Of a stretch of DNA of 64,000 bases, positions 26,423 through 40,813 are shown one piece after another. The notes under the pieces were generated by a model. It was given only the letters and a program-made list of their open reading frames with translations, did no database searches and was not told the DNA's origin. Source of the DNA: Gluconacetobacter aggeris (GTDB lineage Bacteria > Pseudomonadota > Alphaproteobacteria > Acetobacterales > Acetobacteraceae); contig NZ_JABEQD010000006.1 in NCBI RefSeq assembly GCF_014174395.1, forward strand, positions 1 through 64,000, written 5' to 3'. The translations under genes were made by a program, and so were the position numbers. Numbering within the stretch: the stretch's first letter is position 1; the number at the start of each line of letters is the position of its first letter.

Positions 26423-26689
26423 AACCTATCCTTTTGTACCAACACGAATCATGACGGGAAAACAGTCCCTTCATGGGAATATGCATATCGGGATGGTCCG
26501 CATGGCCTGCGATGGGCCTGCCGACATCTCTCCCTTTGCGGACAGCAATCCTGTCCATCTGACTCCAACGCCCCACCTGGGGGCAATCCCGCCGCATCCG
26601 GCCGCGCGGTCCCGTGGGATCGGAGCCGGGAACAAGCCTCCCGCTCGACGATCATCGGACCCGTGCGACCCTAAAACCCAGACCGGCTG

Positions 26690-27475
26690 TCAGGTTCCCG
26701 TGCCGCCCGACGCCCCGGCGGCGTCGCGGTCCAGCAGCAGGATCTCGCCGGTCGAAATCCGTTTCAGCCCGTCGGCGCAGTGCAGCAGGAGCATCCCCTG
26801 CTCGTCCAAGCCGACGAACGAACCTTCTACCTGCCCGCTTTCGCCGCGCACCACAAGTCTGGTGCCCGGCGGATGGGCGCGTTCCAGCCATGCCGCACGC
26901 AGCGAAGCGAAGCCCTCGGCGCGCCACACCGCCTGCCAGCGGTCCAGCTCGGCGCAGATCGCACGGGCCACGATCTCGGGGTCCGGAGCCGTTCCATAGG
27001 CGGCGACGCAGGCCAGGCTCCGTCCGGTAATCGACGGCACGGCCCGCAGATTGGCCCCGAACCCGATGACCAGCCAGCGTCCCGTGGCATCGCTCCCACG
27101 CTCGATCAGGATGCCGGCGGTCTTGCAGCCCGCCAGCAGCAGGTCGTTGGGCCATTTCAGCCGCAACTGCGCCGGATCGTGAATCCACGGCAGGATCGCC
27201 CCGTAAAAGGCCAGACTGGCCACGAACGGCCACAGCCCCACCGCGCCATCCGCCTCCGCGGGGCGCAGCAGGACCGAGAATGCCAGATTGCCACCCGGGT
27301 CCTGCCAGTCGCGGCCCCGGCTGCCCCGGCCACGGGTCTGGCGACGGGCCATGACCGCCAGTCCCGCCTCCACCCCCTCGCCCGCCCGCGCGATACAATG
27401 ATCGGAGGTCGAGCCCAGCTCGTCATGGACCTCGAGGCGCCAGGCGGTCGCCCCCGGCGCCAACGCCACCGTCAC
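26690..27475 (-). CDS. birA: Biotin-[acetyl-CoA-carboxylase] ligase (monofunctional)
   Basis: A 261-residue enzyme that attaches biotin to acetyl-CoA carboxylase carrier protein through biotinyl-AMP. Motifs: GRGSRGRDW 49-57 (AMP/biotin loop), KWPND 107-111 and the catalytic lysine K118 in CKTAGILIE. There is no N-terminal winged-helix domain, so it is not a repressor. The start is a GTG at 27475 that overlaps the nuoN stop codon (GTGA). This makes it the last gene of the nuo operon, by translational coupling; no ATG is available near. Confidence 0.92.
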   Translation of the reverse strand: MTVALAPGATAWRLEVHDELGSTSDHCIARAGEGVEAGLAVMARRQTRGRGSRGRDWQDPGGNLAFSVLLRPAEADGAVGLWPFVASLAFYGAILPWIHDPAQLRLKWPNDLLLAGCKTAGILIERGSDATGRWLVIGFGANLRAVPSITGRSLACVAAYGTAPDPEIVARAICAELDRWQAVWRAEGFASLRAAWLERAHPPGTRLVVRGESGQVEGSFVGLDEQGMLLLHCADGLKRISTGEILLLDRDAAGASGGTGT

Positions 27476-28896
27476 CTGAACAGGGCCTGTGCCGCAGCCT
27501 GGGCCGCGGTCGAAACCGGACCCAGCACGACCAGGAACCCGGCCGTCGCAACTCCCATCCCGATCGAGACGAAGGACAGCGACAGCGGCCGCCGGTCGAG
27601 AGGCGCCGCCGCCCCATCGAAGAACATCACCTTGATGATACGCACATAATAATAGGCACCGATCACGCTGCTGATGACACCAACCGCCGCCAGCCCGAAC
27701 AGATGAGCATTGATCGCGGCATAGAACACCATCAGCTTGCCGAAGAACCCGGCCAGCGGCGGCGCTCCCGCCATGCTGAACATGAAGATCGCCATCGCGG
27801 TGGCCAGCCCCGGATCGGTACGGCCCAGCCCGGCCAGGTCGGCGATCCCGGTCACCGCGCGCCCCTTGCGGCGCATGGCGATGATCACGGCAAAAGCCCC
27901 GACATTCATCAGCAGATAGGTGGTCAGATAGACCAGCGTGCCGCGCATGCCCTCTACGGTCCCCGCCGACAGGCCCATCAGCGCATAGCCCATATGGCCG
28001 ATCGAGGAATAGGCCATCAGCCGCTTGATATCGGTCTGCGGAATGGCGGCCAGCGACCCGAACAGCATCGAGACGATCGCAATGGCCTCGACCAGGATCT
28101 GCCATTGCGGCGCGACGTGGCCGAACGGCCCCGCCATCACCCGCAGCAGCAGCGCGAAGGCCGCGATCTTCGGCGCACCGGCCATGAAGGCCGTCACTGG
28201 GGTCGGCGCGCCCTGGTACACATCAGGCGTCCACATATGGAACGGCACCGCCGACAGCTTGAAGGTCAGCCCCGCCAGCATGAACACGATGCCGATCATC
28301 AGCCCCATCGGCACGGCGGAGGTGGCGCTGAGCGCCGTCTGGATGGCGCCATATTCCATTGTGCCGGCAAAGCCATAGACCAGCGCCGAACCATAGAGCA
28401 GCAGGCCCGAGGCCAGCGACCCGAGCACGAAATATTTCAGCCCCGCCTCGGCCCCCCGCACATCGTCCCGCGCAAAGGCGCAGAGGATGTAGATGGCCAG
28501 CGACGACAGTTCCAGCCCGATGAACAGCGTCATCAGATTACCCGACGACGCCATCATCATGGTACCCAGCGTCGAGAACAGCAGCAGGACCGGGAATTCG
28601 AACCGCTCCACCTTCAGGTCCCGCGCGTAGCCCACGGTCAGCATCGTCGCCAGCGCCCCGCCTGCCAGGCTGAGCAGCTTCATGAAGCGGGCAAAGCTGT
28701 CATTGATGAAGATATGGTTGTAGCCGGTCCCGTCCGGCGACATCACGACCAGGAACGCGGTCAGGACGAAGGCGCCGATCGTCAGCATGGAGCAGGCGAG
28801 GAACGGCTGCCCCTTCTTCTGCACCACCCCGAAGACGAGGATCGCGAGGCCGCACAGTGCCAGGACGATTTCCGGCAGAGCAAGTGTCCAGTTCAT
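27472..28896 (-). CDS. nuoN: NADH-quinone oxidoreductase subunit N
   Basis: A 474-residue antiporter-like membrane subunit of complex I with about 14 hydrophobic segments. The diagnostic motif FKLSAVPFHMWTPDVYQGAPT (split here as the FKLS...PFHMW and TPDVYQGAPT parts) identifies NuoN and excludes NuoM, which has a different HTWLPDAH pattern. The family start NWTLALPEIVLALCGL fits the ATG at 28896. It is separated from the nuoL stop codon by only 23 bases: nuoM, which normally lies between, is missing. Its stop codon overlaps the birA GTG. Confidence 0.95.
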   Translation of the reverse strand: MNWTLALPEIVLALCGLAILVFGVVQKKGQPFLACSMLTIGAFVLTAFLVVMSPDGTGYNHIFINDSFARFMKLLSLAGGALATMLTVGYARDLKVERFEFPVLLLFSTLGTMMMASSGNLMTLFIGLELSSLAIYILCAFARDDVRGAEAGLKYFVLGSLASGLLLYGSALVYGFAGTMEYGAIQTALSATSAVPMGLMIGIVFMLAGLTFKLSAVPFHMWTPDVYQGAPTPVTAFMAGAPKIAAFALLLRVMAGPFGHVAPQWQILVEAIAIVSMLFGSLAAIPQTDIKRLMAYSSIGHMGYALMGLSAGTVEGMRGTLVYLTTYLLMNVGAFAVIIAMRRKGRAVTGIADLAGLGRTDPGLATAMAIFMFSMAGAPPLAGFFGKLMVFYAAINAHLFGLAAVGVISSVIGAYYYVRIIKVMFFDGAAAPLDRRPLSLSFVSIGMGVATAGFLVVLGPVSTAAQAAAQALFR

Positions 28897-28919
28897 CGGT
28901 TCAAACCCGTTCCCGGAGA

Positions 28920-30860
28920 TCAACGGAAGACCAGCAGGGTGGAGACGAGCACCACCAGGCCGATCAGCATCGTGAAGGCATAGATCGCGATCGAACCGGT
29001 CTGGGTCCGCACCGCCTGGGCGGCGGTACCCGCCGTCATCCGGGCCAGACCGTGGGGAATCCCCTCGATCACCTCTTCGTCCACGCCTTTCCACAGCAGG
29101 TTGGCAAGCGCCCGATACGGCCGGACGAACAGATGGTCATACAGCTCGTCGAAATACCATTTGTTCAGCAGGAACAGGTAGATCGGCCGCAGGCTGGTCG
29201 CCAGCGACACCGGAATGGCAGGGCTGGCCACGTAACACAGATAAGCGACCAGAATACCCAGCACACCCGCAAAGGTCGGCACCAGCGCGATCAGTTCCGG
29301 CGTCTGTTCCAGCGTCGCGATGATGGTATTGCCCGGCGCATTCACGATCGCCCCGTTCCAGAAGGCGGCCTGGCCCGCGCCGACATAGTACGGCGCCAGC
29401 AGCAGCCCGGCCAGCACCGCGCCCATCCCCAGCAGGACCAGCGGCAGCGTCATCCAGGCCGGGCTTTCATGCGCGCCCTCATGCAGGTGCGCATCGCGCG
29501 GCGCGCCGTGGAAGACCAGGAAGATCAGGCGCCAGCTATAGAGCGCGGTGATGAAGGCGGTAACGCAGCCCAGCGTCCAGCCATAGAAGCCGAGGCTGCT
29601 ATGGGCCATCCACGTCGCTTCGAGGATCGCGTCCTTCGACCAGTAGCCGGCGAAGGGGAAGATGCCGGCCAGGGCCAGGCTGCCCACCCACATCGCGCCG
29701 TACGTCAGCGGGATCTTCTTCCACAGTCCGCCCATGCGGAACATGTTCTGCTCGTCATGCACGGCATGGATCACCGAGCCCGCGCCCAGGAACAGCAGCG
29801 CCTTGAAGAAGGCATGCGTCGTCAGATGGAACATCGACGCCTGATAGGCCCCGGCCCCGACGGCCATGAACATGTAGCCAAGCTGCGAACAGGTCGAATA
29901 GGCGATCGTGCGCTTGATATCCGGCTGCACCAGCCCGACCGTGGCGGCAAAGAAGCAGGTCGTCGCCCCGATGAAGAGGATGAAGCCCTTGGTGTCGGGC
30001 GCGAATTCCACCAGCGGCGACATACGCGCCATCAGGAACACGCCGGCGGTCACCATGGTCGCGGCATGGATCAGGGCCGAAACCGGCGTCGGGCCTTCCA
30101 TCGCATCCGGCAGCCAGGTGTGCAGGAAAAGCTGCGCCGACTTGCCCATCGCACCGATGAACAGCAGCAGGCAGATCGTCTCGTAGATCCGGTGCGTGCC
30201 GAACAGCGTATAGGTGTCGTCGCCATGCGCCGGTACCAGCGCGAAGATATTGTCATAGGTGACCGAGCCGAACTCGACGAACAGCAGCGCGATACCGACC
30301 ATGAAGAACAGGTCGGCCACACGATTGACCACAAAGGCCTTGATCGCGGCGGCACAGGCGCTCGGGCGGTCGTACCAGTAGCCGATCAGCAGATAGCTCG
30401 CGAGGCCCACGCCCTCCCACCCGAAGAAGAGCTGGATCAGGTCGTTCGACGTCACCAGCATCAGCATGGCGAAGGTGAAGAGCGAGAGATACGAGAAGAA
30501 CCGATAGGTCGGGGTCGTCTCATGCCCCATGTAACCGATGCTGTAGATATGCACGAGGGCCGAAACCGCGGTCACCATGGCGACCATCGACAGCGACAGC
30601 GTATCCAGCCGCAGCGTCCAGGCGGCATGGAAGCTGCCGGCGCGGATCCAGTCCGCCAGTTGCACCACGACCGGCATGCCGCCGGCATGCATCGCGGTGA
30701 GCAGCGCCCCGCTGCCGCACAGGGCCGCGATCACCATGACGGACGTGGTCAGCGCCTTGGCCGGCCCGTCGCCCATCATCCGCCCGAACAGGCCCGCCAC
30801 CATGCAGGCGAACAGGGGTCCGAGGACCGCGATCTCGAAAAGGGTAGATGCCGTTTGCAT
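28920..30860 (-). CDS. nuoL: NADH-quinone oxidoreductase subunit L
   Basis: A 646-residue distal antiporter-like subunit of complex I. The core motif LFLHTWLPDAMEGPTPVSAL and the preceding FFGWEGVGLASYLLIGYWY are diagnostic for NuoL. The C-terminal part includes the lateral-helix and last membrane segment (ending in a hydrophobic stretch and LLVFR). Length is normal for NuoL alone, so nuoM has not been fused to it. The stop codon is 23 bases before the nuoN start. Confidence 0.97.
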   Translation of the reverse strand: MQTASTLFEIAVLGPLFACMVAGLFGRMMGDGPAKALTTSVMVIAALCGSGALLTAMHAGGMPVVVQLADWIRAGSFHAAWTLRLDTLSLSMVAMVTAVSALVHIYSIGYMGHETTPTYRFFSYLSLFTFAMLMLVTSNDLIQLFFGWEGVGLASYLLIGYWYDRPSACAAAIKAFVVNRVADLFFMVGIALLFVEFGSVTYDNIFALVPAHGDDTYTLFGTHRIYETICLLLFIGAMGKSAQLFLHTWLPDAMEGPTPVSALIHAATMVTAGVFLMARMSPLVEFAPDTKGFILFIGATTCFFAATVGLVQPDIKRTIAYSTCSQLGYMFMAVGAGAYQASMFHLTTHAFFKALLFLGAGSVIHAVHDEQNMFRMGGLWKKIPLTYGAMWVGSLALAGIFPFAGYWSKDAILEATWMAHSSLGFYGWTLGCVTAFITALYSWRLIFLVFHGAPRDAHLHEGAHESPAWMTLPLVLLGMGAVLAGLLLAPYYVGAGQAAFWNGAIVNAPGNTIIATLEQTPELIALVPTFAGVLGILVAYLCYVASPAIPVSLATSLRPIYLFLLNKWYFDELYDHLFVRPYRALANLLWKGVDEEVIEGIPHGLARMTAGTAAQAVRTQTGSIAIYAFTMLIGLVVLVSTLLVFR

Positions 30861-30867
30861 GGCCCGC

Positions 30868-31191
30868 TCAGCCCTTCATCATGGTGATGTCTTCGACCTC
30901 GATCGAACCGCGATTGCGGAAATAGACCGTCACGATCGCCAGCCCGATGGCGGATTCAGCCGCCGCGATGGTCAGGACGAACAGGGTAAAGACCTGCCCG
31001 GACAGATCGCCGAGCGCGGAAGAAAACGCGACGAAATTCAAATTCGCCGACAGCAGGATCAGTTCGATCGACATCAGGATGATGATGACGTTCTTGCGGT
31101 TCAGGAAAATGCCGAACACACCCAGAACCAGCAGGATGGCACTGACCGTCAGATAGGGTCCGATGCCGATGCTTCCCAATCCGCCGGTCAT
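30868..31191 (-). CDS. nuoK: NADH-quinone oxidoreductase subunit K
   Basis: A 107-residue three-helix membrane subunit. The two buried glutamates of the proton path are present as E43 ([14 protein letters not shown]) and E79 ([10 protein letters not shown]). The start overlaps the nuoJ stop codon by 4 bases, and the nuoL start is 7 bases after its stop codon. Confidence 0.97.
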
Positions 31192-31952
31192 TGCGCCAGC
31201 CCTCCATGATTCTCGGTGCCGTGCCCGCCCCGCCGGGTCTCATCGACCGGTCTGCCCTGGGGCACGGGCTCTTCCGTCACCCCGTACGACCCCGGAACCG
31301 ACGCGATGTAGTAGGAATGTTCCGGCCGGCGGAAACCGCCATTGGCCGCCACGCCCTGCCCCAGGGGCACGGTCATCATGGCCAGCGTATCCGCCGCCGT
31401 GCGTTCGTGCTGCCGGTCGATATTCTGCCGCCGCCCCATCGGCCGTTCGCGCAGCGTCAGCACGATGGCGCCGATCATCGCAACCAGCAGCACCAGGCCG
31501 CACGCCTCGAACAGGAAGACGTAATGCGTGTACAGCACGTCACCCAGCGCCGCGGTATTGGTCCGCCCCGGCGCCGCCACCACATGCGGCACGGACCCGA
31601 TATCCTCCGCCACCTGCCAGTGGCTGAAGGCCAGCGCCAGTTCGGCCAGCAGCACCAGCCCCACCGCCGCCCCGAAGGGCGCGTAACGCTGCAATCCTTC
31701 CCGCATCTGCGCGAAGCGGACATCGAGCATCATCACGACGAACAGGAACAGCACCGCAACGGCGCCGACATAGACGATGACCAGGATCATCGCGAGGAAT
31801 TCGGCCCCCGCGACCAGGAACAGGCCCGCGGCGTTGAAAAAGGCCAGGATCAGGAACAGCACGGAGTGAACGGGATTGCGCGCGCTGACCACCATTCCGG
31901 CCGACAGGACCAGTACCGTCGCGAACACGTAGAAGACGATTTGGGTCATCAT
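31188..31952 (-). CDS. nuoJ: NADH-quinone oxidoreductase subunit J, with long C-terminal tail
   Basis: A 254-residue membrane subunit with five hydrophobic segments in the first ~165 residues, including the [17 protein letters not shown] helix of the family. NuoJ is usually about 170-210 residues. Here a hydrophilic tail of about 80 residues rich in Gly, Arg and Pro follows. The first ATG at 31952 is followed directly by a second at 31949. It overlaps nuoK by 4 bases. The gap to nuoI is 60 bases. Confidence 0.93.
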
Positions 31953-32012: not shown

Positions 32013-32501
32013 TCAACGATAGGGCGCATCGAGTTCCAGCCGCCGTGCCAGGACACTTTCCCAGCGGTCGCCGTTGGCGAGCAGCTTGTCCTTGTTGTAC
32101 ATGAGTTCCTCGCGCGTCTCGGTCGCGAACTCGTAGTTCGGCCCCTCGACGATCGCATCGACCGGGCAGGCTTCCTCGCACAGGCCGCAATAGATGCACT
32201 TCGTCATGTCGATGTCGTAGCGCGTGGTGCGCCGCGACCCGTCGTCGCGCGGTTCGGATTCGATCGTGATCGCCTCGGCCGGGCAGGTCGCCTCGCACAG
32301 CTTGCAGGCAATGCAGCGTTCCTCGCCGTTCGGATAGCGGCGCAGCGCATGTTCGCCACGGAAGCGCGGCGAGAGCGGCCCCTTTTCGTATGGATAGTTG
32401 ATCGTCACCTTGGGTTTGAAGAAGGCCCGCAGCGTCGCTCCCATGCCGGCCACCAGTTCGGCCAGCAGGAAGGAACGGACCGTCCGGTCAAGATACCCCA
32501 T
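32013..32501 (-). CDS. nuoI: NADH-quinone oxidoreductase subunit I (two 4Fe-4S clusters)
   Basis: A 162-residue ferredoxin-like subunit carrying clusters N6a and N6b. Both CxxCxxCxxxCP motifs are intact: C63/C66/C69/C73 and C102/C105/C108/C112. The ATG at 32501 overlaps the nuoH stop codon as TGATG and has a GGAGGAG site upstream. The frame is open further upstream but that part is nuoH read in another frame. Confidence 0.97.
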
Positions 32502-33526
32502 CAGCTCGCTCCTCCCTGGGGCAGCAGCCCGGTGGCCAGCAGGAAGCCCGCCGTCAGCACCATCCACACCAGCGAGAGCGGGAGGAACACTTTCCATCCC
32601 AGCCGCATCAACTGGTCGTATCGGTAGCGCGGGAATGTCGCGCGCACCCAGATGAAGACGAACAGGCAGAACAGGATTTTGGCGATCAGCCACAGCGGCC
32701 CCGGTATCCAGGTAAAGGGCGCGATCCCGATCGGCGGCAGCCAGCCACCGAGGAACAGGATGCTGACCATCCCCGACATCAGGAACATGTTGGCATATTC
32801 GCCAAGGAAGAAGAGGCCGAAGGCCAGCGCCGAATATTCGACGAAAAAGCCGGCCACCAGTTCACTCTCGCCCTCGGGCAGGTCGAACGGCGCGCGGTTG
32901 GTTTCCGCCAGCGCCGAGATGAAGAAGATGATGAACATCGGAAACATCGGCAGGCAGAACCAGACATGGCGCTGCGCCAGCACGATATCGTTCAGGTTCA
33001 GGCTGCCCACCGCCAGCAGCACCGACACGATCACCAGGCCGATCGACACCTCATACGACACCATCTGCGCCGCCGCGCGGAGGCCGCCGAGGAAGGCATA
33101 TTTCGAATTCGACGCCCACCCCGCGATCAGCACGCCGTAGACACCCAGCGAGGAGATGGCGAGCAGGTAGAGAACCCCGACATTGATATTGGCCACCGCC
33201 CAGCCGTCATTGGTGGGAATGACCGCCCAGGCGGTCATGGCCAGCGAAAAGGTTAGGAACGGCGCGAACAGGAACAGGAACCGGTTGGCCCCGGACGGAA
33301 TCACGGTTTCCTTGGTGATCATCTTGATCGCGTCGGCGAAGGCCTGCAGCACGCCGAATGGGCCGTTGACGTTCGGCCCCTTGCGCAGTTGCATCGCCGC
33401 CATGACCTTGCGTTCGGCCAGCGTCAGGTAGGCCACGCCCAGCAGAAGCGGCACCAGAACGGCCAGCGCCTCGAGAACCGTCAGGATCACCTGGCCGATC
33501 AGTGTGTGCAGAAAGAAATGCGCCAC
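32501..33526 (-). CDS. nuoH: NADH-quinone oxidoreductase subunit H
   Basis: A 341-residue eight-helix membrane subunit that forms the quinone site with NuoB and NuoD. The motifs [42 protein letters not shown] and the [15 protein letters not shown] loop (given here as recognisable parts) are intact. The start is a GTG at 33526, 7 bases after the nuoG stop codon, and its stop overlaps the nuoI start. Confidence 0.97.
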
Positions 33527-33532
33527 GTCGCC

Positions 33533-35599
33533 TTACTCCGCCGCCACGGTCCGGGGATGGACATAGATCCGCGAACACTCACCCATCGTCGGGCTGGCCC
33601 GGCAGATCGGGTCCGTCTGATAATAATCGTCGAAGACCGGGCGAAACGGCGCCGACGACACCGCACCGCCACCCGTCGGCCCCGGCAGCGCCGACGCGTC
33701 CACCGCATCCAGCCCGCCAATCACCCGGAAGACCGGATTGACCGTCGCCAGCCGCTCCCGCAGCATCTCCACCGTGTCATAGGGCAGCGTGTGGCCCACG
33801 ACCTCGGAAAACGCGCGCAGGATGCGCCAGTCCTCGCGCGCCTCGCCAGGCGGCATGACCGCCCGGAACGACCGCTGGACCCGCCCCTCGGTATTCACAT
33901 AGGTGCCGGACTTCTCGGCATAGGTCGCACCGGGCAGGATCACATCCGCCCGCGCCGCCGCCGCATCGCCATGATGGCCCTGATAGATGACGAACGTGTC
34001 CGGCCCGATCTGCGCGGTATGGAACTCGTCCGCCCCCAGCAGCCACAGCACGTCGACGCCGCCGCTCATCATTCCGGCGGCGCTGCGCCCGCCCTTGCCC
34101 GGCACCAGCCCCATATCCAGCCCGGCGACGCGGCTGGCCGCGCGATGCAGGACATTGAAGCCGTTCCACCCAGCCCCGATCGCCCCCGTCTCGGCCGCCA
34201 GCGCCCAGGCCGAAGCCAGGATCGCCCGCGCATCCGGCCGCGTCAGCGCGCCATGCCCGACGATGATCATCGGCTTCTTCGCCGCCTTCAACACCTCGGC
34301 GAAAGGATGCATGCCATCCCGCAGGGCTGCCAGCACCTCAGGCCCCTCGCCCAGCAATTCCGCCTTGTAGGTCGGGTCCGCCGTCGGCGCGCCGATCAGC
34401 CCGATCGGGAACCCACCCCGGCCCGCCGCAAGGAAACGCTTGCGGATACGCGCATTCAGCACCGGCGCCTCCTGGCGCGGGATCGACCCCACGATCAGCA
34501 GCGCATCGGCATCCTCGATCCCGGCAATGGTGGTGCCGAACGTGTAATAGGCCCGGTGCGACAAATCGTAATCCGCGCCATCCTGGCGGCAGTCGATATT
34601 GGGCGAACCCAGCGCCGTCATCAGGTCCTTCAGCGCCAGCATGCTCTCGGCATCGCACAGATCGCCGGCAATGGCGCCGATCCGATCCCCCGGCACGCCG
34701 TCCAGCCGGCGACCGATGGCCACGAACGCGTCCTGCCACGAAACCGCCTGCAACTTGCCGTGGACCCGCACCCAGGGCCGGTCCAGCCGGCGATGCTTCA
34801 GCCCATCGACCGAGAACCGCCCCTTGTCCGCCAGCCATTCCTCGTTCACCGCGTCATTGACGCGGGGCACGGCCCGCAACACGGCGCTGCCGCGCACATG
34901 CAGGCTGATATTGGTGCCCACCGCATCGCTGACATCGATCGAGTCCGTCCGCTTCAGCTCCCACGGCCGGGCGGTGAAGGCATAGGGCTTGGAGGTCAGG
35001 GCTCCCACCGGGCAGATGTCGATCAGATTGCCCGACAGTTCGGAGGTCAGCGCCTTCTCGACGTAATTGGTGACTTCCATGTTCTCGCCGCGCGAGACCG
35101 CGCCCAGCTCGGGCACGCCCGCGATCTCGGTCGCGAAACGGATGCAGCGCGTGCACTGGATGCAGCGCGTCATCACGGTCTTGACCAGCGGGCCGAGATA
35201 TTTGTCCTTCACCGCGCGCTTGGCTTCCTGATAGCGCGAGTGATCGGCGCCATAGCCGAACGCCTGGTCCTGCAGATCGCATTCGCCACCCTGATCGCAG
35301 ATCGGGCAATCCAGCGGATGGTTGATCAGCAGGAATTCCATCACCGCCCGCCGCGCCTTGCGCACGATCTCGGTGTCGGTCAGGATTTCCATCCCTTCCG
35401 CCACCGGAAAGCCGCAGGACGCCACCGGCTTGGGCGCCCGCACCACCTGCACCAGGCACATGCGGCAATTGCCCGCGACCGACAGACGTTCATGGAAACA
35501 GAAGCGCGGAATTTCCTTGCCGGCCGCCTCGCACGCCTGCAGCGCGCTGGACCCGTTGGGAACGTCGACCACGATCCCGTCGACGGTTACCTTCACCAT
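33533..35599 (-). CDS. nuoG: NADH-quinone oxidoreductase subunit G
   Basis: A 688-residue peripheral subunit. The N-terminal 2Fe-2S part has the cysteines of FCFHERLSVAGNCRMCLVQV. Next come the His/Cys 4Fe-4S motif (HPLDCPICDQGGECDLQD) and the TRCIQCTRCIRF plus LIDICPVGAL ligands. The C-terminal molybdopterin-oxidoreductase-like domain is catalytically silent in this family. The ATG at 35599 starts the canonical KVTVDG sequence; the long open frame before it belongs to nuoF read out of frame. It lies 5 bases after the nuoF stop codon. Confidence 0.97.
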   Translation of the reverse strand: MVKVTVDGIVVDVPNGSSALQACEAAGKEIPRFCFHERLSVAGNCRMCLVQVVRAPKPVASCGFPVAEGMEILTDTEIVRKARRAVMEFLLINHPLDCPICDQGGECDLQDQAFGYGADHSRYQEAKRAVKDKYLGPLVKTVMTRCIQCTRCIRFATEIAGVPELGAVSRGENMEVTNYVEKALTSELSGNLIDICPVGALTSKPYAFTARPWELKRTDSIDVSDAVGTNISLHVRGSAVLRAVPRVNDAVNEEWLADKGRFSVDGLKHRRLDRPWVRVHGKLQAVSWQDAFVAIGRRLDGVPGDRIGAIAGDLCDAESMLALKDLMTALGSPNIDCRQDGADYDLSHRAYYTFGTTIAGIEDADALLIVGSIPRQEAPVLNARIRKRFLAAGRGGFPIGLIGAPTADPTYKAELLGEGPEVLAALRDGMHPFAEVLKAAKKPMIIVGHGALTRPDARAILASAWALAAETGAIGAGWNGFNVLHRAASRVAGLDMGLVPGKGGRSAAGMMSGGVDVLWLLGADEFHTAQIGPDTFVIYQGHHGDAAAARADVILPGATYAEKSGTYVNTEGRVQRSFRAVMPPGEAREDWRILRAFSEVVGHTLPYDTVEMLRERLATVNPVFRVIGGLDAVDASALPGPTGGGAVSSAPFRPVFDDYYQTDPICRASPTMGECSRIYVHPRTVAAE

Positions 35600-35604
35600 C
35601 GCCC

Positions 35605-36930
35605 TTACTCCGCCGCCACAGGAATACCGAGCGGCACCTGCGTGATCCGCCCACCGCCATGGGCCGCCTTGTAGGCCATGATCCGCTCTTCCATCACCGG
35701 GCGGAAATGCCGGATCAGCCCCTGGATCGGCCACGCGGCCGCGTCACCCAGGGCGCAGATCGTGTGCCCCTCGACCTGGCGCGTCACCTGTTCGAGCATG
35801 TCGATTTCCTCGATCTCCGCCCGCCCCTCGACCATCCGGTTCATCACCCGCATCATCCAGCCGGTGCCTTCGCGGCACGGCGTGCACTGGCCGCAGCTCT
35901 CATGCTTGAAGAATTGCGAAAACCGGGCGATCGCCTTGATGATGTCGGTGGATTTGTCCATCACGATCATGCAGGCGGTGCCCAGGCCCGACCGCTCGGC
36001 GCGCAGGCTGTCGTAATCCATCAGCACCGTCTCGCAGACCGACGCCGGCAGTACCGGCACCGAACACCCGCCGGGGATCACCGCCAGCAGATTGTCCCAG
36101 CCGCCGCGCACCCCGCCGCCATGCTTCTCGATGATCTCCTTCAGCGGCACGCCCAGCTCTTCCTCGAACACGCAGGGCGTGTTCACATGGCCCGAAATGG
36201 CCATCAGCTTGGTGCCCGCATTGTTCGGCCGCCCCAGCGCCGAGAACCACGACGCCCCGCGCCGCAGGATGGTGGACGACACCGCAATGCTCTCGACATT
36301 GTTGACCGTCGTCGGGCAGCCATACAGGCCCATCGCCGCCGGAAAGGGCGGCTTCATGCGCGGCTGCCCCTTCTTGCCTTCCAGGCTTTCCAGCAGCGCG
36401 GTCTCCTCGCCGCAGATATAGGCGCCGGCACCGCGATGAATGTAGAAATCGAAATCCCAGCCCGACCCGGCGGCATTCCTGCCGATCAGCCCGGCCGCAT
36501 AGGCCTCGTCGATCGCGATCTGCAGATGGCGCGCCTCATTGAAGAACTCGCCGCGGATATAGATATAAGCCGCATGCGCCCCCATCGCGAACGACGCGAT
36601 CAGTGCGCTCTCGATCAGCTTGTGCGGCTCATGCCGCAGGATCTCGCGATCCTTGCAGGTCCCCGGCTCGGACTCGTCGCCATTGATGACCAGGTAATGT
36701 GGGCGTCCGTCCGAATTCTTCGGCATGAACGACCATTTGACACCCGTCGGAAAGCCCGCCCCGCCCCGGCCACGCAGGCCGGAGCCCTTCATCTCGTTGA
36801 CGATGGCGTCCCGGCCACGCGCCAGGATCTCGGCGGTGCCATCCCAGTCGCCGCGCTGGCGCGCGCCAGCCAGTCGCCAGTCATCCTGACCGTACAGGTT
36901 GGTGAAGATCCGGTCCTTATCCTGCAACAT
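35605..36930 (-). CDS. nuoF: NADH-quinone oxidoreductase subunit F (NADH/FMN-binding)
   Basis: A 441-residue subunit that oxidises NADH with FMN and passes electrons to cluster N3. Visible: [13 protein letters not shown] (51-63, flavin/NADH binding), the [14 protein letters not shown] loop, and the 4Fe-4S motif [12 protein letters not shown] near 345-356 with a distant fourth cysteine in [12 protein letters not shown]. It starts 14 bases after nuoE. Confidence 0.98.
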
Positions 36931-36944
36931 GCCGTCTCTCCCCC

Positions 36945-37583
36945 TCAGCCCTGCTTCGCCGGACTGTCCGTCAGCGTCCTGCGCCCACCTTCCGGTGCCG
37001 AATTCATCCGGTCGATCGTCGGCCCGGGCGTCGGGCGCTCGCCACGACGCAACGCCTCGATCAGCTCGATCGTGCGCGGCCCGTCCAGATCCTCGTAGAA
37101 ATCATCATCAACCTGCAGGATCGGCGCGTTGGCGCAGGCGCCCAGGCACTCCACCTCGGTCAGGGTAAACAGCCCGTCGGCGCTCGACTGGCCGAACCCC
37201 GAAATCCCGGTCGCCTTCTTGCAGGCCGCGACCACATCGTCAGAGCCACGCAGCCAGCACGAAGTCGTGGTGCAGACCTGAAGATGATACCGCCCGATCG
37301 GCCTGGTATTGAACATCAGGTAGAAGGTCGCCACCTCATAGACACGGATCGGCGCAACCTCCAGCCGGCGCGCGATCTCGTCCATCGCCACGCGCGGCAC
37401 CCAGGCGCTGCCCGTCTGCCGGCTCATCTGCTTCTGTACGACATACAGAAGCGGGAGCGTGCCGCTGGCCTTACGCTCGGGCGGATATTTGGCCAGGATC
37501 GCCGCAATCTGCTCTTCGCTCTCGGCATCGAAAGCAAAGCTGGCGGGTTGTTCGATCTGATCGATGGGGGAATGAGCGGACAT
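36945..37583 (-). CDS. nuoE: NADH-quinone oxidoreductase subunit E (2Fe-2S)
   Basis: A 212-residue thioredoxin-fold subunit carrying cluster N1a. The four ligands are C104, C109, C146 and C150 (CTTTSC and CLGAC). The C-terminus extends about 40 residues past the E. coli form, as is common in alphaproteobacteria. The ATG at 37583 is 5 bases after the nuoD stop codon; the longer open frame upstream is nuoD read out of frame. Confidence 0.97.
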
Positions 37584-37588
37584 CTCTG

Positions 37589-38839
37589 TCACCTGTCTAT
37601 CTCGCCGAACACCAGGTCCAGCGACCCGATGATCGCGACCGCGTCGGCCAGCATGTGGCGGCGCGACATCTCGTCGATCGCCTGCAGATGGGCAAAGCCC
37701 GTGGGCCGGATCTTGCACCGGTAGGGCCGGTTGCTGCCGTCCGCGACCAGATAGACCCCGAATTCGCCCTTGGGGCTTTCGACCGCAGTATAGGTCGCGC
37801 CCGGCGGCACGTGGTACCCTTCGGTGAACAGCTTGAAATGATGGATCAAAGCTTCCATCGACCGCTTCATCTCCCGGCGCGGCGGCGGGGTGATCTTGTG
37901 GTCCTGGATCTTGACCGGCCCCGGCCTGATCTGCGCCAGGCACTGTTCGACGATCTTCACGCTCTCGCGCATCTCCGCCACGCGCACCAGATAGCGGTCG
38001 TAACAGTCGCCCTGGCGCGTGACGGGGATGTTGAACGTCACCTTGTCGTAATTGTCATACGGCTGCGCACGGCGCAGATCCCACGGCACGCCCGATGCGC
38101 GCAGGCAGGGGCCGCTGAACCCCCAGGCCAGCGCCTGCTCGGTGGTGAACACGCCGATCCCGACCGTCCGCTGCTTCCAGATCCGGTTGTTGGTCAGCAG
38201 CGTTTCCAGATCGTCGATCCAGCGCGGGAACTGCCGCGCCCATTCCGCGATCCGCTCTTCCAGCCCCGCCGGCAGGTCGCGTGCCACGCCGCCCGGACGG
38301 AAATAATTGGCATGGAAGCGCGCACCCGACGCCGCCTCGTAGAACTCGATCAGCTTCTCGCGCTCTTCATACCCCCACAGCGCCGGGGTCAGCGCGCCGC
38401 AATCGAGCCCGAACGAGGTCAGGTTCAGGATATGGTTCAGGATGCGCGTCATTTCGGCGAACATCACGCGAATCCATTTCGCGCGGTCGGGGATCTCGAT
38501 CCCCAGCAGCTTCTCCGTCGCCAGCGCGAAAGCCTGCTCCTCGCACATCGGCGAGACGTAATCGAGCCGGTCGAAATACGGCAGCGCCTTGGGATAGGTC
38601 TTGTATTCGATCAGCTTCTCGGTGCCGCGATGCAGCAGGCCGATATGCGGAATGGCGCGGGCGACGACTTCGCCTTCCATCTCCAGCACCAGCCGCAGCA
38701 CACCATGGGCCGACGGATGCTGCGGGCCGAAATTCAGGGCGTGGGAATCGATCTCCACGGTCCGGATTTCCGCCTTGGCGGCCGCGTCAGCCGACAGCAG
38801 CTCTTCCGGAATATCCTCGTGAAGGACAATGTCGCTCAT
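37589..38839 (-). CDS. nuoD: NADH-quinone oxidoreductase subunit D
   Basis: A 416-residue 49-kDa-type subunit that lines the quinone pocket. The family motifs [15 protein letters not shown] (quinone-contacting histidine loop), [11 protein letters not shown] and the C-terminal DPVFGEID-like end ([11 protein letters not shown]) are present. nuoC and nuoD are separate genes, 52 bases apart, unlike the fused nuoCD of enterobacteria. Confidence 0.98.
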
Positions 38840-38891: not shown

Positions 38892-39557
38892 TCATCGCGG
38901 CAACTTCAGTCCCTGGCGGGATTCATGCGCCTTCTCGTCGCCCGGCAGGGTCAGGATGCCCTCCCACGGCGATTCGAAATCGAAATTGCGGAAATCCTGC
39001 GTCAGCTTCACCGGCTCGTAGACCACCTGACGGCGATCCTCGTCGTACCGCATCTCGACATAGCCGGTCAGCGGGAAGTCCTTGCGCAGCGGATGCCCCT
39101 CGAACCCGTAATCGGTCAGGATGCGGCGCAGATCCGGCTGGCCCGAGAACAGGACCCCGAACAAATCGTAGCACTCGCGCTCCCACCACGTGGCACAGGG
39201 CCACAAATGATGCACCGACGGCACCGGATTCGTCTCATCCGTGGTCACGATGACGCGAATCCGGTGGTTACGCGTCACCGACAGCAGGTTGTAGACAACC
39301 TCGAATCGCTCCGCCCGCGCCGGATAATCGACACCGCACAGATCCATCATCTGTTCGCAGGCATAGCGCGGATCGTCGCGCAGCAACCCCATCAATGCCA
39401 GCAACCGGTCGCGGCTGGTCCGCACGACCAGTTCGCCATCCTCGATCGCGGCGGAATGGATGCCCGGCACGCTCGTCGACAGCGCGAAGGCCAGGGACCC
39501 CAGCGCGCCACGTGACTGGGCCTGCTGGGTCGTCAGTTCGGTGCCCGGTTCAGCCAC
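38892..39557 (-). CDS. nuoC: NADH-quinone oxidoreductase subunit C
   Basis: A 221-residue 30-kDa-type subunit. The family motif [20 protein letters not shown] with the following [13 protein letters not shown] is intact. The start is a GTG at 39557 overlapping the nuoB 3' end by 8 bases. It ends with the usual [13 protein letters not shown] tail plus about 20 residues. Confidence 0.97.
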
Positions 39558-40125
39558 GGAGAATCGTCCCTGTCCTGCGGATTTTCTTCTGCAATTGCAG
39601 GATACCGTAGATCAGCGCCTCGGCCGTCGGCGGGCAGCCGGGAACGTACACGTCCACCGGCACGATCCGGTCGCATCCGCGCACCACGGAATAGGAATAA
39701 TGGTAATAGCCGCCGCCATTGGCGCAGGACCCCATCGAGATCACCCAGCGCGGTTCGGCCATCTGGTCATAGACGCGGCGCAGGGCCGGTGCCATCTTGT
39801 TGGTCAGGGTCCCGGCCACGATCATCACGTCCGACTGGCGCGGCGACCCGCGCGGAATGATGCCCATCCGGTCCAGGTCATAGCGCGGCATGTAGGCGTG
39901 GATCATTTCCACCGCACAGCAGGCCAGCCCGAAGGACATCGGCCACAGGCTGCCGGTGCGGCCCCAATTGACCAGCTTGTCGAGGTTGGCGACGACGAAC
40001 CCCTTCTCGGTGATCTCGCCGGTAATCCCCTTGATGACGGCATCCTGCTCCGGCCCCGGGGGCAGCATGTCCCGGTTCCAGGCGATCGCGCCCTGTCCGT
40101 CACCTGTCGCATCAGCGATACTCAT
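39550..40125 (-). CDS. nuoB: NADH-quinone oxidoreductase subunit B
   Basis: A 191-residue subunit carrying the terminal cluster N2 next to the quinone site. Its ligands are the tandem cysteines C69-C70 (GLACCAVEM), C134 (MGSCANGGG) and C164 (VPGCPPTAE). It lies 36 bases after nuoA. Confidence 0.98.
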
Positions 40126-40161: not shown

Positions 40162-40527
40162 TCAATCCCAGTCCAGGGCGCCCTTGCACCATTCATAGAT
40201 GAACCCCACCGTCAGAATGCCCAGGAACCCCATCATCGACAGAAAGCCGAACAGGCCGATCCGCGACAGGCTGACCGCCCAGGGGAAAAGAAAGGCGACT
40301 TCGAGGTCGAAGATGATGAACAGGATCGCCACCAGATAGAACCGGACATCGAAACGATGCCGCGCATCGTCGAACGCCTCGAACCCGCATTCATAGGCCG
40401 AGACCTTCTCGGCATAGGGCTTCTGATGACCGAAGAGCAGGGAGCTTCCCAGCATCGCGCCGGCGATCACCACCGCCAGAACACCGAAAACCAGAACTGG
40501 AAAATAATCCGCAAGAACGGAATTCAT
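40162..40527 (-). CDS. nuoA: NADH-quinone oxidoreductase subunit A (first gene of the nuo operon)
   Basis: A 121-residue three-helix membrane subunit. The motifs [20 protein letters not shown] and [10 protein letters not shown] are canonical. It is the first gene of a ~13-kb minus-strand operon (nuoA-L, N, birA). The 286 bases between its start and tRNA-Asp must hold the operon promoter. I could not single out a convincing -35/-10 pair there. Confidence 0.97.
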
Positions 40528-40813
40528 GGCGCATCTCCCTGACTGATGGCCCGCTTGCCGCGGGCGTCATGACGAACAGGGCGTCGTCATGGTCAGGAGG
40601 TTAGACCCATCGTCCGGATGCGACCAGACCGCGACGCGCCATCGGGGGATGAACATTCCCGTGATGATGAATATGCTACGCGGATATGCGCGTTAGGGAC
40701 GACCTGTCTTTTCCCGGGCTAAAATATTGGAAGCCGGGCCAGCCCCGATTATTGGGAAGATGCACCTTTAACAGGTGCCATGCGGTCGATCATTACTAAT
40801 GATGAAACGACCA

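Follow-up and report, generated by a model that had tools for sequence, protein, structure and literature searches.

The 64,000-nucleotide window analysed here (positions 1-64000 of contig C6, NZ_JABEQD010000006.1, from Gluconacetobacter aggeris) carries a row of nuo genes for respiratory complex I in which nuoM, the gene for one of the proton-pumping subunits, is missing. We find that this row very probably (we put the probability at about 0.93) codes for 13 subunits of an ordinary 14-subunit, proton-pumping complex I, and that its NuoM is supplied by a lone gene downstream of mutL on another contig (C9) of the same genome (G000; 4.32 Mb in 61 contigs). The oddity of nuoM is most likely one of gene order, the enzyme being complete, and a shortened membrane arm is unlikely. 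A subunit that is absent from an operon need not be absent from the enzyme.

The nuo row is on the minus strand and runs from nuoA (40527) to nuoN (27472), preceded by clpX, lon, an HU gene, tRNA-Val and tRNA-Asp. Subunit identities were assigned from NCBIfam profile matches of the window proteins (Table 1). These bear out what had been claimed from the sequence alone, namely that nuoA to nuoL and nuoN are all present in the usual order, NuoA being assigned by a subthreshold match plus its position. No nuoM lies between nuoL and nuoN in the window, where, as is read directly from the sequence, the gap is only 23 bp. Because NuoL and NuoN each span their own profile nearly end to end, neither hides a NuoM, in agreement with the same reading.

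The sequence-only reading had offered three interpretations of the gap: a nuoM elsewhere in the genome, a shortened membrane arm with lower proton yield, or a gene lost in assembly. Only the relocation is supported. A whole-genome search with Proton_antipo_M returned six places: two in the window (nuoL and nuoN), three in an L-M-N set on contig C3 and a lone gene on C9; with the NuoM model TIGR01972, two genes exceed the cut-off, at C9:40012-41454 (544 bits) and C3:299006-300454 (510 bits). The C9 gene is complete and encodes 502 aa from a GTG start, on the same strand as mutL and just downstream of it, and is followed by a LysR-type gene on the opposite strand. Its product scores above the curated cut-offs of both TIGR01972 (544.7 vs 263.8 bits, residues 5-486 of 502) and the NuoM equivalog NF004499 (590.5 vs 585 bits); it reaches 133.6 bits with the NuoN model and 169.8 bits with the top Mrp-type model, and no NuoL-only model is among the best 25 of the 73 models matched. 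In trees of NuoM rows (NuoL, NuoN and Mrp rows not included) it nests among Acetobacteraceae NuoM, which rules out an import from outside the family. The nearest named relatives by NuoM are Gluconacetobacter, with 99% identity to G. asukensis and G. tumulicola. All 14 subunit genes are present in the genome, A to L and N in the window and M on C9.

The C3 genes belong to a second, E. coli-type complex I (L219:5438-18854) with a fused NuoCD (NF008728, 1010 bits) and its own L-M-N. The C3 NuoM falls in a separate tree group (5 rows, 99*) and is distant from the free NuoM. For G. diazotrophicus, a second nuo operon, possibly acquired by transfer, has already been published, and the tree in the consulted part of that paper is based on nuoHIJKLN, nuoM being excluded (PMC4596401). 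Likewise, a Fur site has been predicted before a G. diazotrophicus nuo set that the excerpted text lists with nuoCD and nuoM (PMC9368920); we take this set to be the second operon because nuoCD is fused.

The gap at the nuoL-nuoN junction is neither chance nor an assembly fault. Comparison of this junction in related Acetobacteraceae, a check proposed along with the sequence-only reading, shows that nuoL and nuoN adjoin without nuoM between them in 17 of 17 loci (the window and L178-L193). The spacers, counted from the projected nuoN start, range from -1 to 76 bp, and another member of the genus (L193) has the 23-bp spacer of the window letter for letter. In all 16 other genomes a NuoM above the cut-off is encoded elsewhere.

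We further evaluated the distribution of the split in wider samples. Forty relatives were searched for NuoM, 13 of them from the same genus; NuoM lies apart from the window-type nuoN in 12 of these 13, and in the remaining genome, G013 (1310 contigs, 87% complete), no match reaches the NuoM cut-off. Across the family (110 genomes, at least 90% complete), NuoM exceeds the cut-off in 103 genomes, the other seven being without a match. NuoM places were paired with NuoN places using all matches above the cut-off plus the nearest weaker ones, the lowest being the fragments in G045 and G107; on this basis every NuoM is beside a NuoN in 78 of the 103 genomes, 16 are split, seven carry an extra free NuoM and two are undecidable. 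One flagged genome (G076) reflects a contig break, with a 260-bit NuoM fragment beside nuoN, leaving 15 split genomes. In a class-wide sample of 115 genomes, NuoM was found over the cut-off in 103, and 98 of these have every NuoM beside a NuoN. The five exceptions are the window's genome and G066 from this family, together with G028, G162 (an extra NuoM with three in-frame TGA codons) and G230 (a NuoM fragment). Given so few exceptions, the split is rare in the class and concentrated in one group. In G028, a small alphaproteobacterial genome from another family, nuoL and nuoM share a contig (C11:25783-27219) and nuoN is on a second one (C43:121-1542).

The surroundings of the free nuoM were compared in 80 named loci retrieved with the C9 NuoM as query. 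In ten of them nuoL and/or nuoN adjoin nuoM, and identity to the C9 NuoM is only 53-56%; in the other 70 neither gene adjoins it, and identity is 62-99%. mutL is found upstream of nuoM in 57 of these 70, and the mutL-nuoM gap, measured in 56, is 116-198 bp in 51 loci and about 2.0-3.4 kb in five. A gene of the MlaC type, as found upstream of nuoM in L120, occurs in 11 of 81 loci, ten among the 13 without mutL and one in G132. In these MlaC-type loci (L208, L120, L122, L123, L130, L135, L142, L143, L155, L156 and L158) the gene stands in place of mutL, and in nine of the 11 a TerB-DnaJ gene is upstream of nuoM too. There is thus a second relocation in some Acetobacter, either of nuoM or of mutL.

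A conserved block, CTCKGNNNAAYGTGA, precedes the GTG start of nuoM in all 14 rows compared (L098-L100, L102, L103, L106-L108, L112, L113, L115, L119, L162 and L218) and may be a promoter or activator site. Before nuoA, a TCAC..AATGTTC block is present in 6 of 9 rows. A regulatory motif shared by nuoA and nuoM was considered and set aside, as no convincing common motif was found.

Seven proton-path residues were checked in the free NuoM. In E. coli numbering these are E144, K234, H241, K265, H322, H348 and E407, and each of 40 free NuoM rows, which represent 36 genomes, four being present twice, retains all seven; proton-path roles of E407 (the distal glutamate), E144, K234 and K265 are described in the available portion of PMC9271201. 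For nuoM, dN is far lower than dS (dN/dS about 0.05-0.22) in all five pairs compared, which come from the genus and its vicinity; the same holds for nuoL and nuoN, and the free nuoM is under purifying selection like these former neighbours. In the part consulted of a proteome study of Acetobacter pasteurianus, NuoM is numbered far from the other Nuo proteins and changes by ratios of 0.62, 0.33, 2.16 and 1.78; NuoN changes by 0.93, 0.31, 2.22 and 2.12, and NuoB-I shift likewise (PMC10742644). The NuoM from the separate locus would slot between NuoN and NuoL and so complete the membrane arm.

Phylogenetic analysis places the split genomes in one clade. The trees include 14 clade genomes, which are 13 of the 15 split genomes (G001 and G002, of the window's genus, were left out) plus G. 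diazotrophicus PA1 5 (G004); in the RpoB tree, two of 30 genomes without an RpoB match (G065 and G040) were excluded. The 14 form a single group with RpoB (100/99), RpoB+RpoC (100/100) and NuoL+NuoN (100/100). The free NuoM of the clade also form one group, at 89 (20 rows) and 88/84 (14 rows). This lower support arises because the free NuoM of one further genome, G118, joins the NuoM of the clade at 100/100, branching outside the 14 (88/84). As the split is common to one clade of relatives, it is most simply explained by one ancestral origin, with later changes of place in some members. The NuoM and NuoL+NuoN trees give G077 and G092/G051/G114 as sister of the free NuoM, and the RpoB+RpoC tree does not; long branches are involved.

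Compared with its partners, NuoM changed strongly at the base of this clade. Across 34 genomes (14 in the clade and 20 outside), on one topology derived from NuoL+NuoN that may itself favour NuoL and NuoN, the clade stem, scaled to the rest of the tree, measures 0.086 (0.069-0.111) for NuoM, 0.027 (0.019-0.034) for NuoL and 0.015 (0.009-0.022) for NuoN, the ranges being 95% of 100 column resamples. When a switched column is defined as one conserved in at least 19 of the 20 outside genomes and kept in at most one of the 14 inside, NuoM has 19 switched columns of 157, NuoL 2 of 217 and NuoN 5 of 133. With other thresholds and a wider NuoM set (40 free rows vs the 59 others that remained once three divergent rows had been dropped), 15 columns switch. 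If this burst, confined to NuoM, holds up, it provides a collection of natural variants of a proton channel that is otherwise almost invariant.

Several observations weigh against a complex I completed by the free NuoM. The genome encodes a second complex I with its own nuoM, and the place of the free NuoM in the complex of the window row is something we infer. No mutL was found within the available stretch in 13 of the 70 loci without adjoining nuoL or nuoN (in L121, this stretch is just 213 bases upstream), and the NuoM of the A. pasteurianus proteome, going by the same portion of that study, is only putatively the mutL-side gene. After the stem, the rate within the clade relative to outside is 0.72 (0.64-0.79) for NuoM vs 0.56 (0.52-0.62) for NuoL and 0.58 (0.55-0.65) for NuoN, so that NuoM remained somewhat faster, the resampling ranges of NuoM and NuoN barely overlapping. 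Lastly, the lysine at E. coli K173 is present in all 49 operon rows and in all 13 further rows from Alphaproteobacteria, and the 40 free NuoM rows have Q in 29, R in 4 and K in 7, with Q in the window's genome. This lysine is conserved in the compared rows and is not a curated NuoM criterion; in E. coli it lies at the cytoplasmic surface, and in the excerpted account an arginine change there had the least effect among those tried (PMC3046159).

We also weighed alternatives to a NuoM encoded at the mutL side. The adjoining nuoL and nuoN, which sit together as though nothing were missing, could indicate that the complex works without NuoM, NuoL being bound straight to NuoN in a shorter membrane arm. 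We consider this highly improbable, as the same genomes keep an intact NuoM under purifying selection with its proton-path residues. Moreover, four clade members (G014, G022, G041 and G066) have just three TIGR01972 matches, two of which are L and N of the row, and retain the free nuoM, which in these genomes has only the complex of the row to serve. The shortened arm with lower proton yield finds no support, as the free NuoM is full length, and the co-variation of the A. pasteurianus NuoM with other Nuo subunits, as far as the consulted part of PMC10742644 goes, also speaks against it. Sharing of the C3 NuoM, with the free NuoM doing something else, is suggested by the complete L-M-N of the C3 cluster; it is very unlikely given how far the C3 NuoM is from the free NuoM in the tree, and several clade members without a second set retain the free nuoM. 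That an assembly or sampling error deleted nuoM from between nuoL and nuoN might be supposed of a genome in 61 contigs, yet the probability is negligible: all 17 loci share the arrangement, including those of genomes in one to three contigs (G041, G004, G012 and G136), and NuoM is found elsewhere in every one of the 16 other genomes. In G. diazotrophicus PA1 5 (NC_011365.1), nuoM (1.57 Mb) and the nuo row (3.65 Mb) lie apart on a single closed replicon, which excludes an assembly error.

How nuoM came to leave the row is less certain, and the answer turns on G118. This genome has a complete L-M-N row plus an extra free NuoM of the diverged type, located in another neighbourhood and not beside mutL. 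With RpoB+RpoC, G118, the clade, G111 and G019/G061 meet in an unresolved fork; a tree constrained to make G118 the clade's sister is not rejected (p 0.61) and scores slightly higher. A group that joins every free NuoM to G118's operon NuoM was rejected (p 1.2e-5). In the NuoL+NuoN tree the G118 row is not beside the clade, though the NuoL+NuoN data do not reject the matching group (p 0.127). The long stem is common to the clade and G118's free NuoM, so most of the change predates either the divergence of G118 from the clade or a transfer to G118. Should G118 be the clade's true sister, the free copy diverged while the operon copy still existed. A second nuoM copy would then have arisen at another locus in an ancestor of acetic acid bacteria and diverged fast while the operon copy still worked, and the operon nuoM would later have been lost in the clade, displaced by the diverged duplicate, with one near-clade genome keeping both. 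We tentatively prefer this displacement, at a little short of even odds; if true, the complex I of the clade operates with a form of one proton-pumping subunit that is peculiar to the clade. Another scenario, which we take seriously while leaning against it, is that nuoM moved in one step, with no two-copy stage, and that G118 acquired its free NuoM, or the entire nuo row, by later transfer. Support for this comes from the different neighbourhood of the G118 gene, from the position of the G118 row in the NuoL+NuoN tree and from the fact that, among the seven genomes with an extra free NuoM, only that of G118 groups with the free NuoM of the clade (that of G050 not being in the trees). It is countered by the RpoB+RpoC test and by the branching of the G118 NuoM outside the 14.

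The remaining extra NuoM genes are of other kinds. Those of G073, G050 and G053 adjoin a nuoL, and those of G073 and G053 are in the E. coli-type group; that of G067, carried on a contig of 8 kb, falls with an operon NuoM of G111. The extra lone NuoM of G120 (L211) and G040 (L212) are not of the mutL-side type and branch next to G120's operon NuoM. In both, the central lysine K265 is replaced by N, a substitution also seen in one of 49 operon NuoM rows, and L212 has Y at H348; going by these residues, the two proteins perhaps have altered or lost pumping.

The closest known system is the alphaproteobacterial nuoA-N operon, which encodes the 14-subunit complex I. The window row resembles it in having 13 subunits in the usual order, with a full-length NuoM over the cut-offs, and differs in that nuoM is at another locus and that the NuoM of the clade carries the switched columns described above. 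Cyanobacterial NDH-1 likewise has a NuoM-like subunit encoded apart, by dispersed ndhD genes whose several variants serve different complexes, whereas here one free nuoM would serve one complex. Gene order is reportedly not essential for the assembly of E. coli complex I (Oppermann et al., by title), which would explain the tolerance of a moved gene but is not a natural relocation. The split itself is known in passing: nuoM was listed apart from the operon in A. pasteurianus in 2016 (PMC5158111), in one sentence without comment, and the age, spread and nuoM neighbours of the split are unstated in the part of that paper at hand. In the complex I tree of PMC12361115, most clades are said to mix split and single-cluster sets, and split sets are described there as common generally; the excerpt does not single out nuoM of acetic acid bacteria, and its one mention of Komagataeibacter concerns plasmid-borne Nuo genes. 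No description of the extent of the split, its single origin or the burst in NuoM was found in the accessible portions of open-licence full texts, and the burst and the displacement by a diverged duplicate are possibly new. The relocation is ordinary in kind, and its interest lies in the evolution that followed. It shows that the gene of a proton-pumping subunit can depart from an operon otherwise very stable in the class and remain intact throughout a clade's history.

Table 1. The nuo row of the window with its nuoL-nuoN spacer and presumed promoter region (window coordinates; scores are NCBIfam profile matches).
Feature	Position	Strand	Basis
nuoA	40162..40527	-	top NCBIfam match is a NuoA model, 104.8 bits (cut-off 155); first place in row
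nuoB	39550..40125	-	NF005012, 266.5 bits
nuoC	38892..39557	-	NF004733, 285.7 bits
nuoD	37589..38839	-	NF004739, 608.2 bits
nuoE	36945..37943 (open frame)	-	TIGR01958, 155.9 bits (cut-off 142.4), match at residues 128-329
nuoF	35605..36930	-	NF010120, 826.4 bits
nuoG	33533..35734	-	TIGR01973, 728.6 bits
nuoH	32501..33526	-	NF004745, 514.6 bits
nuoI	32013..32693 (open frame)	-	NF004539, 306.7 bits, match at residues 68-226
nuoJ	31188..31952	-	NF005164, 265.5 bits
nuoK	30868..31191	-	NF004323, 161.1 bits
nuoL, 646 aa	28920..30860	-	NF005141, 784.5 bits (cut-off 556), profile 4-611 of 615
nuoL-nuoN spacer, 23 bp; site of nuoM in most other sampled genomes	28897..28919	-	
nuoN, 474 aa	27472..28896	-	NF004440, 604.2 bits (cut-off 519), profile 8-477 of 477
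presumed promoter region of the nuo row, tRNA-Asp to nuoA (function inferred)	40528..40813	-	

The real start of nuoE is probably downstream of the open-frame start. An open frame 3' of nuoN (26652-27398) has no family match in NCBIfam or Pfam, and a birA label considered for it was dropped for this reason; related frames follow nuoN in L190-L193.

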